DNA from: Bacteroidales bacterium
GTDB lineage: Bacteria > Bacteroidota > Bacteroidia > Bacteroidales > UBA1715
Length of the DNA stretch: 64,000 nucleotides
Assembly: GCA_024409235.1 (NCBI GenBank)
Contig: JAKSUA010000006.1
Coordinates: forward strand, 1 to 64,000
Direction of reading: 5' to 3'
In this document: piece after piece, positions 37,098 through 45,209 of the stretch
Layout: each line of letters starts with the position of its first letter
How positions within the stretch are numbered: position 1 is the first letter of the stretch
Notes under the pieces: generated by a model
The model's input: only the letters and a program-made list of their open reading frames with translations
Database searches by the model: none
Told to the model about the DNA's origin: nothing
Translations under genes and position numbers: made by a program

Positions 37098-38234
37098 ATG
37101 GAATTTATAGTTTCAACATCAGAATTATTAAGTCAATTAAATACAATAAAGGGTGTTATCAATTCTAAGAATGCTCTTCCTATTCTTGATAATTTCCTTT
37201 TCACTTTGGAAGGAAATACTCTAAAGATTGAAGCTTCGGACTTGGAAACACGTTTGGAAACAAAAATTGAATTGGAGAATGTAAAGGGTAGCGGTATTGT
37301 TGCTATTGAAGCAAAACGTTTGACAGATATGTTGGGATTGTTCTCCGATGAGCCTTTAACATTTAAGGTTGATTTGACAAATTATAAGATTGATATACTT
37401 TCTGCAAGTGGTAAGTATAGCATAGCTGGTGCAAGCGGTGAAGAATTCCCAAAGAATTTGTCTTTGGAGGAAACAAAGTCTTCTTTCACAATTGCTTCGG
37501 ACATTCTACAGAAAGCTATTGCTAGTACAGTTTTTGCAACTTCAGATGAAGATTCACGTCCAATTTTTACTGGAATTTTGTTTGAATTGACAAATGAACA
37601 CTTACGTTTAGTTGCAACTGATTCTCACAAATTGGCTCGTTATACAAGAACAGACATTAAGTCTGATTCAGCTGCATCTTTCATTTTCCCTAAAAAACCT
37701 GCAAATATTTTGAAAAACATCCTTTCAAAGGAAAATGGTGATGTGAAAGTTGAATTTGATGAAAAACAGGTTGTCATTACAATGTCTTCAAATATCATGA
37801 GCTGCCGTTTGATCGATGGAAAATATCCAAACTATAGTGCAGTAATTCCAACAGAAAATCCTAATGTTCTTTTAATCAACAAAGACGATTTCTATAAGAA
37901 ATTACGTCGAGTTGCTTTCTTCTCAAATCCAGCAAACAACTTAGCTCGATTGGAAATGTCTGGAACACGTTTGTTGATTTCTGCACAAAATATCGATTAT
38001 GCAAGTTCTGCAAAAGAAGAGTTGAACTGCCGTTATGAAGGTGAAGATATGCAGATTGGTTTCAAATCAAAATTGTTGTTGACAATATTAGACAATTTGA
38101 ACAGCGAGGATGTTAGTCTTGAAATGTCAGAACCTTCTCGTGCCGGTTTGATTATTCCTGTAGATAAGGAAGATGAAAACGAAGATGTTCTTATGTTGTT
38201 GATGCCTATGATGTTGATGCCGGTATCAGAATAA
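37098..38234 (+). CDS. dnaN: DNA polymerase III beta sliding clamp
   Basis: A 378-residue protein of three repeated clamp domains. The N-domain starts MEFIVSTSELLSQLNTIKGV, the middle carries TGILFELTNEHLRLVATDSHKLA, and the C-domain ends with MLLMPMMLMP near the terminus, where the partner-binding groove lies. It tethers polymerases to DNA and is loaded by the dnaX products. It lies in one transcript with gyrB, an arrangement that recalls the dnaA-dnaN-gyrB neighbourhoods near origins. No DnaA boxes were recognised here. Confidence 0.96.
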   Translation: MEFIVSTSELLSQLNTIKGVINSKNALPILDNFLFTLEGNTLKIEASDLETRLETKIELENVKGSGIVAIEAKRLTDMLGLFSDEPLTFKVDLTNYKIDILSASGKYSIAGASGEEFPKNLSLEETKSSFTIASDILQKAIASTVFATSDEDSRPIFTGILFELTNEHLRLVATDSHKLARYTRTDIKSDSAASFIFPKKPANILKNILSKENGDVKVEFDEKQVVITMSSNIMSCRLIDGKYPNYSAVIPTENPNVLLINKDDFYKKLRRVAFFSNPANNLARLEMSGTRLLISAQNIDYASSAKEELNCRYEGEDMQIGFKSKLLLTILDNLNSEDVSLEMSEPSRAGLIIPVDKEDENEDVLMLLMPMMLMPVSE

Positions 38235-38255
38235 TTGAAATTAAGATAAACTATG

Positions 38256-38290
38256 AAGAGTGGCGGATTTTTCGTCACTCTTTTTATTTT
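38256..38290 (+). terminator. Rho-independent terminator after dnaN
   Basis: AAGAGTGGCG (38256-38265) pairs with CGTCACTCTT (38273-38282), including one G-T pair, followed by a T-rich run. It ends only 8 bases before the next gene, whose start codon therefore follows the terminator closely. Confidence 0.75.
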
Positions 38291-38297
38291 TAAGAAA

Positions 38298-39065
38298 ATG
38301 AAATTACAGTTAAATAGACCGATTGCTTTTTTTGATTTAGAAACAACTGGCGTTGATGTTGTAAAAGACAGAATTGTTGAAATATCAATTTTGAAAGTAT
38401 TTCCAAATGGGGATGAAAATGCAATAACTCGAAGAGTAAATCCTCAGATGCATATTCCGGAAGCAGCAACTGCTGTACATCACATAACAGATGAAGATGT
38501 TGCTGATAAACCTACTTTTTCACAAATAGCAAAAGAGATTGCATTGATGTTGGAGGACTGTGATATTGCCGGTTATAATTCCAATAAATTTGATGTTCCT
38601 TTGTTAGCTGAGGAATTCTCTCGTGCAGATGTGATATTTGACTGGTCTAAAAGAAAAATGGTTGATGTACATGTTCTTTATTTGAAAAAAGAACCACGTA
38701 CTCTTTCGGCTGCATATAAATTCTATTGTGAAAAAGATTTGGAGGGAGCACATTCCGCAGATGCTGACACTTTTGCCACATACGAAGTATTGCAGGCTCA
38801 GTTGGACAAATATCCTGATGTTCAAAATACTGTGGATTTTTTAAGTGATTTTACGCATCATACAAACAATGTAGATTTTGCGGGAAGAATTATCTATAAT
38901 GAGAAAAAACAGGAAGTCTTTAATTTCGGGAAATACAAAGGACAGCTTGTTGCTGATGTATTTAAAAAAGATCCGAGTTATTATTCATGGATGATGAATG
39001 GCGATTTTCTTTCTAATACAAAACAAGTGATTACAGCAATAAAATTACGTACATTCGGAAAATAA
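38298..39065 (+). CDS. DnaQ-like 3'-5' exonuclease
   Basis: The start is ATG 38298 (MKLQLNRPIAFFDLETTGVD). The longer ORF start at 38253 would precede the terminator. The 255-residue protein has the DEDDh active site: FDLETTG (first Asp and Glu), GYNSNKFDVPLL (second Asp) and HSADADTFAT (His and last Asp). It is probably a nuclease of the DNA polymerase epsilon type acting in proofreading or repair. A C-terminal part (FGKYKGQLVADVFKKDPSYYSWMM) resembles the short domain seen after exonucleases of this family in Bacteroidetes. Its stop overlaps the next start by one base. Confidence 0.9.
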   Translation: MKLQLNRPIAFFDLETTGVDVVKDRIVEISILKVFPNGDENAITRRVNPQMHIPEAATAVHHITDEDVADKPTFSQIAKEIALMLEDCDIAGYNSNKFDVPLLAEEFSRADVIFDWSKRKMVDVHVLYLKKEPRTLSAAYKFYCEKDLEGAHSADADTFATYEVLQAQLDKYPDVQNTVDFLSDFTHHTNNVDFAGRIIYNEKKQEVFNFGKYKGQLVADVFKKDPSYYSWMMNGDFLSNTKQVITAIKLRTFGK

Positions 39066-39637
39066 TGAAAATACTTGCACTAGAATATGGCCATGATGTG
39101 GCAAGTCTTGATGAAGCAATGGCTTGTTATCCGGATTCATCGTTGATTAGAAACAATGATGATTTTTATGTTCCGAATTTCTCAAATCAGATTGTTGCAT
39201 ACGCAGGAATATATCTGCAGTTCAATAAAATTGGAAAATGTATAGAACCTCGTTTTGTTGACCGTTATTTTAAAGAGGTTGGATGTGCTGTAAAATTTAT
39301 GGCTGCTGATGTAATTGAACGCAATAAAAAAAATGGAACAGCAACGGATATAGCATGCAGTTTTGATTCTTCCTTAGCAATAAGTAACGAGAAAATTCTT
39401 GTTGATAAGACTGATTTACAAGTTTCTATTTTGTTTAATAAACAACAAATAGAGTTTGATTTTAATGTGATAAAAACGATTCCGGAATTTGTTGCTACGG
39501 CAACGAAGTATTATACGGTAAAAATAGGGGATTTATTCTTTGTTCCGTTAACAAGAACTCCAATGCCTGTTTCAATAGGAGATGTATTTGATTTATCGTT
39601 GCAACAGCGTCAGTTATTAACTTGTACTGTGAAATAA
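39065..39637 (+). CDS. Degenerate fumarylacetoacetate hydrolase-family protein
   Basis: A 190-residue protein aligning in order with FAH-family proteins of Bacteroides. RNNDDFYVPNFSNQIVAY, CIEPRFVDRYFKEVGCAVKF and the late VKIGDLFFVP and IGDVFDLSLQ match known segments. The catalytic metal site, normally an Ex(V)E pair after the segment DFS, is missing; the corresponding place reads IVAYAGIYLQ. It therefore probably does not catalyse C-C hydrolysis and may be a structural or binding protein. Start and stop overlap the exonuclease and DUF2461 genes, so it is translated with them. Confidence 0.65.
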   Translation: MKILALEYGHDVASLDEAMACYPDSSLIRNNDDFYVPNFSNQIVAYAGIYLQFNKIGKCIEPRFVDRYFKEVGCAVKFMAADVIERNKKNGTATDIACSFDSSLAISNEKILVDKTDLQVSILFNKQQIEFDFNVIKTIPEFVATATKYYTVKIGDLFFVPLTRTPMPVSIGDVFDLSLQQRQLLTCTVK

Positions 39638-40315
39638 ATGGCTTCGATTGATTTACATTGTGTTTGGAATTTCCTTTCTGATTTGGCATTAAACAATAAT
39701 AAGAATTGGTTTGATGCGCATAAAAGCCTTTATAAACAGGCTCATGAAAATTCTATGGCTTTTGCCGAAGCTTTAATTACTGGTTTAGCAAAATTTGATA
39801 AAGATGTTGCAGGTTTGTCGGTAAAAGATTGCACGTATAGAATATATCGTGATTTACGTTTTTCTATTGACAAAACGCCGTACAAAAAACATATAGGAAT
39901 TTATGTTTGCCCTCAGGGAAAGAAGAGTGAAAATGCAGGGTATTATGTCCATATTGAACCAAGTAGCGAATGTATGCTTGTTTCCGGATTATATATGCCT
40001 TCGCCTGCCGCGTTAAAGAGTGTGAGAGAAGAAATTATGTGTGAAGGTGAGTTGTTTGAAAACGCTATAAAAGCTTGTGAAGGTTTTGAATTAGATTGGA
40101 GTACTGCTTTGAAACGTATTCCGCAAGGTTGGAATTCTGCAGATAAGTATTCTGAATATTATAAGTTGAAAGATTTTAATGTGATTCAGAAAATAACAAA
40201 AGAACAAATTTTGTCGCCTGATTTTTTAGAGTTTGTTCTGCAGGAATTTAAAAAGACGCATGAATTAAATGTAATTTTAAATCGTTGTGTGTCTTATGCA
40301 AAAGAAAATTATTGA
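39638..40315 (+). CDS. DUF2461-family protein
   Basis: A 225-residue cytoplasmic protein. The motif FLSDLALNNNKNWFDAHKSLYKQA near the start, followed by YRIYRDLRFSIDKTPYKKHIG and the region AGYYVHIEPSSECMLVSGLY, is the DUF2461 signature (also called TIGR02453), recalled. No function is established. It starts directly after the stop of the degenerate FAH gene. The stop is TGA (40313-40315), which shows that TGA is a normal stop here. Confidence 0.88.
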   Translation: MASIDLHCVWNFLSDLALNNNKNWFDAHKSLYKQAHENSMAFAEALITGLAKFDKDVAGLSVKDCTYRIYRDLRFSIDKTPYKKHIGIYVCPQGKKSENAGYYVHIEPSSECMLVSGLYMPSPAALKSVREEIMCEGELFENAIKACEGFELDWSTALKRIPQGWNSADKYSEYYKLKDFNVIQKITKEQILSPDFLEFVLQEFKKTHELNVILNRCVSYAKENY

Positions 40316-43592: not shown

Positions 43593-44288
43593 TTAGAAAG
43601 GAAGCTCTTCGCTTGGATCATTATTTTTCATTTGGTCTGCTGAAATTGGATCTGGAGCTACAGTTGTGGTAGTTGTAGTTCCGACCGAGGCATCAACACC
43701 ATAAGTTGTGTTCGTTGGCATTTGCACATTATTTGTTGCAATACCGCTGACAGCTTTGTATGCTTGAACACTTGCAAACCATCCGCCATTTTTACCTTCT
43801 CGGCTGTCAATGTCAACAGAAACAGTAACAGTTTTACCATTTTCTAATGTTGCAGCGTTGATTCTGTCATTCCATACAGAAAAACAAACTTTAGGTGCGT
43901 ATGCTTCTTGTAATTCAATAACAAATTCTTGTACCGTCCATGGACCTTTAGCTCCTGTTCCTTCACGTTTCGGTAATGCGCGGATAACAGTACCGGCTAT
44001 TTCTAATGGAGTTGATTGGCCATTTGCACCAGGAGTTACTCTCCAGGCACGGAAATTTGTCATCCAGCGGTCTTTATATTCACGGCTGTCTATATTAAAA
44101 GCAACAGTAATTATTTCTCCAATTTGAATGTTGGAAATTTGAGTTTTATCGTTATTTATAGTGAAACAGATTTTTTTGGGATATTGAGAAATTGTCTCAA
44201 TAATGAAATCTTGTCTTTTCCATTGACCGTTAGAACTTTCTCCCGTTACAGGATCTAAAATCTGAAGTAGTTTTCCTTGAATTTCCAT
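43593..44288 (-). CDS. Tandem DUF3127 protein with SSB-like C-terminal tail
   Basis: The 231-residue protein holds two copies of the DUF3127 domain: residues 1-95 (GQWKRQDFIIETISQYPKKI and AFNIDSREYKDRWM) and 95-190 (GPWTVQEFVIELQEAYAPKV and SVDIDSREGKNGG). A flexible tail ends DPSEELPF, similar to the acidic tip of bacterial SSB that binds repair partners. DUF3127 is a Bacteroidetes domain with an OB-like pattern of no proven function. I infer a role in single-stranded DNA or RNA binding. A -7 box TACATTTG (minus, 44312-44305) lies 16 bases upstream. Confidence 0.8.
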   Translation of the reverse strand: MEIQGKLLQILDPVTGESSNGQWKRQDFIIETISQYPKKICFTINNDKTQISNIQIGEIITVAFNIDSREYKDRWMTNFRAWRVTPGANGQSTPLEIAGTVIRALPKREGTGAKGPWTVQEFVIELQEAYAPKVCFSVWNDRINAATLENGKTVTVSVDIDSREGKNGGWFASVQAYKAVSGIATNNVQMPTNTTYGVDASVGTTTTTTVAPDPISADQMKNNDPSEELPF

Positions 44289-44430
44289 TGAAAATAAATT
44301 TTTTCAAATGTACTATAATTTTTTATACTAAACCATTTTGCCCAATAATGACTTTGAAAACTTATGAACAAGGAAAAGGATGGGGTGTAGATTAAAGATA
44401 GTTATGTTTTTCTATAAAGGCTGAAAATAA

Positions 44431-44489: not shown

Positions 44490-45209
44490 CTATTTTAACG
44501 CATCTGTGATTTTTCCGTCTTTATAAACTGGAACTACTTTACATGTGTCTAAGGTTATGCAGTAATCTATACAGTCATCAACGCCATTGTTTCTTAGGCG
44601 GGTACGTTGGGCACAGTATTCAATAAATCCTCTAAGGTCATTCTTGTGATTGTTCCACATGTCTTGAGCTGCTATGGTAGAATCGCAGATTGTTTCATAT
44701 TCTCCTGTTTGTAGTAACGCGTCTGCTATAGCTCCCATAAATATGGAATCTTCTATGTTGTATTTACCTTTCCAACCTGCACAAAGTAGGGTTACGTCAC
44801 TGTTCTGTTGGCGAATCCATTCAACTAATACTGTAAAATTCGCAAAAGAACCGATAGCAACAGCCTTACAGTTTTCTCCCATTTGTATTGTTCTGGTTCC
44901 GTTTGTGGTACTGTAAACAATATCCTTACCTTCAATAATTTCTCTCTTAAAGTTTTCTGGAGAATTACCGAAGTCTGCAAAATCAAGTTTTTTCCCGTTT
45001 CTTTCGGCGGCAATCAAATATCCTCTCTTTTGATATTCTTTTGCTTCTTCTTCTGTTTTTACAGGAATGATTGTTTTTACTCCGTTGGCAAATGCAGTGC
45101 ATATTGATGTTGTAGCTCTAAAAACGTCTGTAACAACCACAACTGCGTTTTTATTTTCGAAAATATCAAAAAGTGCTGAAGAATAGCAAGTTTCAATTAT
45201 GTGCTTCAT
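44490..45209 (-). CDS. comB: 2-phosphosulfolactate phosphatase family (ComB)
   Basis: A 239-residue protein with the ComB motifs TDVFRATTSICTAFANG, IVYSTTNGTRTIQ and CAGWKGKYNIEDSIFMGA. ComB removes phosphate from 2-phosphosulfolactate, first described in coenzyme M synthesis. Bacteria with this gene usually lack coenzyme M, and here it may serve a sulfonate or other phosphatase reaction. The gene overlaps the O-antigen ligase end by 17 bases, so it is the last gene of the leftward run. Confidence 0.85.
   Translation of the reverse strand: MKHIIETCYSSALFDIFENKNAVVVVTDVFRATTSICTAFANGVKTIIPVKTEEEAKEYQKRGYLIAAERNGKKLDFADFGNSPENFKREIIEGKDIVYSTTNGTRTIQMGENCKAVAIGSFANFTVLVEWIRQQNSDVTLLCAGWKGKYNIEDSIFMGAIADALLQTGEYETICDSTIAAQDMWNNHKNDLRGFIEYCAQRTRLRNNGVDDCIDYCITLDTCKVVPVYKDGKITDALK

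Follow-up and report, generated by a model that had tools for sequence, protein, structure and literature searches.

The gene under study lies at 43593..44288 on the minus strand of the window, the 64,000-nucleotide stretch of Bacteroidales DNA that was analyzed as a whole. Its open frame runs from an ATG at 44288 to a stop codon at 43593-43595, encodes 231 amino acids and ends in ...NNDPSEELPF. Pfam family PF11325 (DUF3127) was found twice in the translation, with 177.3 bits for the whole protein (E 6.8e-53) relative to a gathering score of 27 bits. The first match corresponds to 44037-44285 (E 7.6e-29, 101.2 bits) and the second to 43755-44003 (E 6.0e-23, 82.3 bits). Neither copy contains a stop codon, and the duplicated DUF3127 chain of a preliminary description, made from the letters of the window, is thus borne out. 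Domain 1 (residues 1-84, 44037..44288) is delimited by its Pfam match, by its own model (mean pLDDT 90.5), by structural matches to SSB and PriB proteins at Z 10-11.6 and by a residue table; Domain 2 (residues 95-178, 43755..44006) is delimited by its Pfam match, the full-chain model and the residue table. Residues 179-231 (43596..43754) form a C-terminal linker and tail, presumably disordered given its low pLDDT and its variability across the family, and the last eight of these (residues 224-231, 43596..43619) are the SSB-type tip DPSEELPF. No second DUF3127 gene was found elsewhere in the genome, which holds one match to the canonical SSB family PF00436, located on contig C23 of G000 (locus L003).

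The sequence TACATTTG, at 44305..44312 on the minus strand, is 17-24 bases before the start codon and fits TAnnTTTG, which we take to be the Bacteroidota -7 consensus. Within the 3,249-base locus L001, TANNTTTG occurs once, as this candidate, versus 5.1 occurrences expected by chance, and the position of TACATTTG makes its reading as a -7 promoter element suggestive. Upstream of the DUF3127 gene is a 2-phosphosulpholactate phosphatase (ComB-like) gene (44490-45209, minus strand), which occupies the same place in loci L023 and L024. Genes for dnaN, an ExoX-type exonuclease, a 190-amino-acid protein without a Pfam match and a DUF2461 protein stand in a row at 37098-40312 on the plus strand; dnaN plus an exonuclease are likewise neighbors of DUF3127 in a related family. 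Among five same-order genomes examined, four have dnaN as the divergent neighbor of the DUF3127 gene at a distance of 150-200 bases. Adjacency to dnaN was rejected as a general clue: it is local to one related family, the window dnaN is about 5.4 kb away, and six other same-genus stretches were searched without finding dnaN. Across the phylum, no dominant family emerged as a conserved cellular neighbor among 92 neighbor ORFs from 46 loci.

The C-terminal tip

SSB proteins recruit partners through a D-D-(I/L)-P-F tip, and this SSB-Ct tip is directed at DNA enzymes. Tips were counted in a non-random sample of 98 cellular DUF3127 proteins, comprising all members from the bacterial family, the 30 top scorers in the survey of the phylum, those of 23 divergent genomes, those of multi-copy genomes and 20 chosen for spread. 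Repeat views of one gene (L002, L017-L024), a canonical SSB (L069) and fragments (L092, L099, L102) were left out. Terminal PF was present in 93 of the 98, and 89 fit [DE].?[LIVMA]PF; the five without a PF end are L085, which ends in DEEDEA, and four short copies in genomes G364 and G407. In the 93 tails, the final two residues showed an entropy of 0.09 bits, the three residues ahead of them 1.3-1.5 and the linker from position -9 on about 3.5-3.9. Such frequencies, set against so variable a linker, exclude chance as the source of the tip, which by residue entropy is the most conserved part of the family and sits on freely varying linkers. The window protein itself carries an acidic tip ending in LPF on a variable linker. 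Note that this tip reads E-E-L-P-F and not D-D-L-P-F; position -4 is E in 9 of the 93 tails and D in 71.

The same ending recurs in 39 of 42 distinct IMG/VR DUF3127 proteins, in all five named phages examined, in the canonical SSB of the window genome (DDLPF) and in 13 of 14 canonical SSBs among those listed for the bacterial family (16 loci). Conservation across cells, viral sequences and canonical SSBs indicates that selection maintains the tip and that it belongs to the same type as the canonical SSB tip. The SSB-like terminus noticed in the preliminary description is confirmed by the translation and by conservation across the family, and its interpretation as an SSB tip is strongly supported by that conservation and by the DDLPF end of the genome's own SSB. 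The window genome encodes both RecO and PriA, which shows the presence of possible partners and nothing beyond it.

Two departures from this pattern were seen. A viral DUF3127 protein (L133:5001-5381) extends eight residues beyond an NDLPF motif, so that its tip is not terminal. Genome G407 has three near-identical DUF3127 proteins of about 100 amino acids without a PF tip (L103, L105, L106) alongside a tipped copy (L036); the three have the appearance of copies carried by a repeated mobile element.

Predicted fold, sequence relatives and phage context

Domain 1, modeled alone (with 39 other sequences), gave a mean pLDDT of 90.5 and the strands of an OB barrel. Foldseek returned 40 matches at E up to 0.001, with SSB and PriB proteins on top. 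Using VIA-align 2, Domain 1 aligned to the yeast mitochondrial SSB Rim1 with Z 11.6 and an rmsd of 2.0 Å over 85 residues, and to bacterial SSBs with Z about 11 and an rmsd of about 2 Å. The full-chain model, built from 3 sequences, had a mean pLDDT of 65.1 and a pTM of 0.53, with residues 184-231 under 50, and the packing of Domain 1 against Domain 2 is uncertain for these reasons. Within this model of lower confidence, single-domain SSBs aligned to Domain 2 at Z about 6. The expectation that each copy folds as an OB domain thus holds as a prediction, at high confidence for Domain 1 and, from the full-chain model, at lower confidence for Domain 2; the predicted fold is of the SSB type.

In fold searches with the full chain, ranks 1-4 went to the SSBs of D. 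radiodurans (E 2.0e-6) and, in three entries, of Thermus (to 4.7e-5). Six Thermus/Deinococcus entries aligned at Z 10.5-11.2 over 162-169 residues, with sequence identity of about 14-16%; the next row reached 8.2 and the one after it 6.4. As modeled, the chain would have two OB barrels and one tail, as do the SSBs of Deinococcus and Thermus.

Because PF00436 gave no match to the window protein at E up to 1, we file it as SSB-like and not as a member of the canonical family. A mixed family profile with tails included (A2) matched the D. radiodurans SSB at 4.1e-8 among PDB sequences. To exclude the tail as the cause, 41 DUF3127 rows were trimmed to the domain and the search was repeated. The D. 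radiodurans SSB was again first, at E 2.2e-5 in two stretches, with separate domain alignments that are weak (10 and 16 bits). Below it, the 46 hits of this search are largely further SSBs whose E values are weak or not significant; they include Rho GDI chains (E 0.13 or higher), which were taken as noise. With a mostly viral profile (A3) nothing in the PDB was matched up to E 10, and a single-sequence query (P0001) against PDB sequences found nothing. PF00436 was touched by three of the 41 DUF3127 proteins (best E 2.6e-4), REPA_OB_2 by two, and RecJ_OB and BRCA-2_OB1 by one each, besides assorted noise families. Comparison by hhalign of DUF3127 domains (100 rows, 89 used) with 14 same-family canonical SSBs was not significant (probability 0.2% local; 0.7% global, in an alignment that is nonetheless collinear). 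The hhalign result being no evidence for homology, the argument rests on the profile match at 2.2e-5, the Pfam matches in 3 of 41 proteins and the folds. Genome G010, which belongs to the tandem genus, has on contig C53 a third PF00436 protein (L069, 189 amino acids), which gave two weak matches to the DUF3127 profile, 7.0 and 7.7 bits, and is possibly a longer or two-OB SSB.

No NCBIfam model matched the window protein, and PHROG 4932, a phage family named “single strand DNA binding protein”, matched it at E 5.6e-31. The preliminary statement that no proven function of DUF3127 was known needs amending for phages, where PHROG 4932 labels the domain an SSB by database annotation. A Pantoea phage SSB is reported to hold a DUF3127 domain, and PMC5686142 concerns a phage SSB tail. 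The phage DUF3127 proteins read here are single-domain. Four of five named phages have the gene near RecT, Erf, exonuclease, primase/helicase, NinG or replication-initiation genes; the near neighbors in LoVEphage are less telling. At IMG/VR loci, for 148 of 157 neighbor ORFs, the commonest named PHROGs were replication initiation (11 members) and primosomal proteins (four families of 7, 6, 6 and 6 members, where one ORF can match several). Since these loci were found by patterns including REYNGRWY, conservation of that motif among them was not used as evidence. None of the five named phages has a canonical SSB (PF00436) over the cut-off; the single match in phi10:1 (E 1.8e-4, below the cut-off) falls inside the DUF3127 gene itself.

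Fold, sequence relation, tip and phage context together support the single-strand-binding role proposed in the preliminary description. We consider it very probable that the window protein is a divergent bacterial SSB in which a flexible linker joins two SSB-type OB barrels to a conserved SSB-Ct tip, and that it would bind ssDNA and partner proteins. PriB structures are among the best Domain 1 matches, primosomal and replication-initiation proteins are among the phage neighbors, and the genome already holds a canonical SSB, all of which would suit an SSB-derived OB protein devoted to primosome assembly or another narrow task without general coating of ssDNA. Such a PriB-like role is unlikely, because nearly all DUF3127 proteins carry the SSB-Ct tip, the whole tandem chain is nearest to SSBs and not to PriB, and some phages have DUF3127 but no canonical SSB over the cut-off. 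To our knowledge, PriB has no SSB-Ct tip.

RNA, proteins and sugars are also among the ligands of OB folds, and RNA binding is common for these barrels. With the weak matches of two of the 41 DUF3127 proteins to the IF3 C-terminal domain (best E 0.044) and an editosome protein in the seventh row of the full-chain structural comparison, this could suggest a cold-shock or mRNA-handling protein. The location of phage members in DNA replication and recombination modules argues against RNA binding, as would the tip if, by analogy with SSB, it is directed at DNA enzymes, and we regard an RNA binder as very improbable.

Distribution and doubling of the domain

DUF3127 is present in 222 of 395 genomes of the phylum: 96 of 98 within the class (the window genome included; absent from G305 and G404) and 126 of 297 outside it. 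In the bacterial family, 13 of 14 genomes have both canonical SSB and DUF3127 genes. More than one DUF3127 match was found in 7 of the 222, and in the six besides the window genome these come from separate genes or, for G090, from one split gene. The sole DUF3127 gene of G090 (contig C4, 116703-116967; L099/L102) is broken into two parts that lie in different frames, the second ending in DDELPF, owing to decay or sequencing error.

In the phylum survey the tandem form was observed in one genus only, in 7 of 7 genomes as opposed to 0 of 7 in three other genera of the family. All seven have both copies in one open frame (234-254 amino acids). In a domain tree of 41 rows, first copies form one group (support 100/98) and second copies another (96/96). 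The intact frames and the supported groups show that the doubling is not an assembly accident, and, each copy being one group, a single duplication before the genus diversified suffices. The second copy may be nearer to other members of the order (support 89/69). The copies group within DUF3127 in this tree, which contained no Deinococcus/Thermus rows, and the other members of the family are single-domain; this speaks against common descent with the duplication there and makes the doubling convergent in plan.

The two copies within one protein are 31-52% identical and have lost different aromatic residues (family numbering). Of 56 close single-domain relatives, 42 have W45, which is found in 0 of 7 first copies and 7 of 7 second copies. 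W82 occurs in 52 of these 56 relatives; 7 of 7 first copies keep it, and 5 of 7 second copies have Y or F instead. E70 is retained in 7 of 7 first and 3 of 7 second copies, and R69 and W75 in all 14. In the window protein, Domain 1 lacks Trp at position 45 and keeps R69, E70, W75 and W82; Domain 2 keeps W45 and has Y at position 82. This unequal loss would look like the pattern expected if the barrels divided their labor. The missing tryptophan in first copies and the Y or F in second copies might instead suggest a decoy tail that competes with the canonical SSB for partners on OB domains that bind no nucleic acid, an idea that is most improbable given the retention of W75 and R69 in both copies of 7 of 7 proteins and the use of the single-domain form within phage replication modules.

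Proposed function and known systems

The reading as a divergent SSB rests on computed results: two domains, a predicted OB fold, a relation to SSBs, the tip, the phage context, a single origin of the doubling and unequal residue loss. From these we infer ssDNA binding, partner binding, the oligomeric state and the division of labor with the canonical SSB. The OB barrels most likely coat or cap single-stranded DNA, and the EELPF tip would recruit SSB-binding enzymes (RecO, PriA and the like), the protein working beside the canonical SSB and not as a replacement. Ordinary single-OB members presumably self-assemble. In this genus one ancestral duplication would have joined two barrels in a single chain; a pair of chains could then provide four barrels and only two tails, which is the Deinococcus/Thermus plan. 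The findings are most simply explained by a second SSB lineage in the class, mostly single-domain and doubled in this genus. A broader proposal, for and against which we find the balance even, is that the class runs two SSB systems side by side, the canonical one and an almost universal DUF3127 SSB with the same tip for recruiting partners, and that one genus evolved the Deinococcus/Thermus plan independently in the second system, its barrels dividing the binding surface to give an SSB that is obligately asymmetric and has half as many tails for each barrel.

The class includes major gut bacteria. If the SSB reading is right, almost all genomes sampled from the class encode a second SSB under the label “domain of unknown function”, and models of replication and repair in these bacteria miss a component that would compete for shared partners. 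The tandem genus would then be a natural experiment on how many tails and barrels an SSB needs, so far a question for Deinococcus and Thermus. DUF3127 proteins are small, probably soluble and easily tested.

Judged from the open-licence literature, the cellular family and its tandem form seem undescribed; the search there turned up DUF3127 for the Pantoea phage SSB, and nothing on PF11325 or on a paralogous or second SSB of Bacteroides/Bacteroidetes. In phages, members of the family already carry an SSB annotation (PHROGs), and two-OB SSBs are known, PMC3739723 describing D. radiodurans Ssb as a homodimer with two OB folds per subunit. Given both, the window protein is not a new kind of protein.

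Among known systems, PriB has an OB fold close to Domain 1. Proteins of PHROG 4932 have the same domain, the same tip and a replication-module context; those read have one domain where the window protein has two, and their SSB label is a database annotation. Canonical SSBs (PF00436, e.g. locus L003) also combine an OB fold, a variable linker and a DDLPF tip and show weak repeated sequence matches to DUF3127, but they form a separate Pfam family, which co-occurs with DUF3127 in the family genomes counted above. Closest are the two-OB SSBs of the heat- and radiation-resistant Thermus and Deinococcus (1se8, 3udg, 2fxq, 2cwa), which likewise have two SSB-type OB barrels and one acidic tail per chain and gave both the best whole-chain fold matches and the best sequence match of the family profile. 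There the two-OB protein is the main SSB, whereas in the window genome it would be a second SSB beside the canonical one, and the doubling is independent since it arose within the DUF3127 family in one genus.
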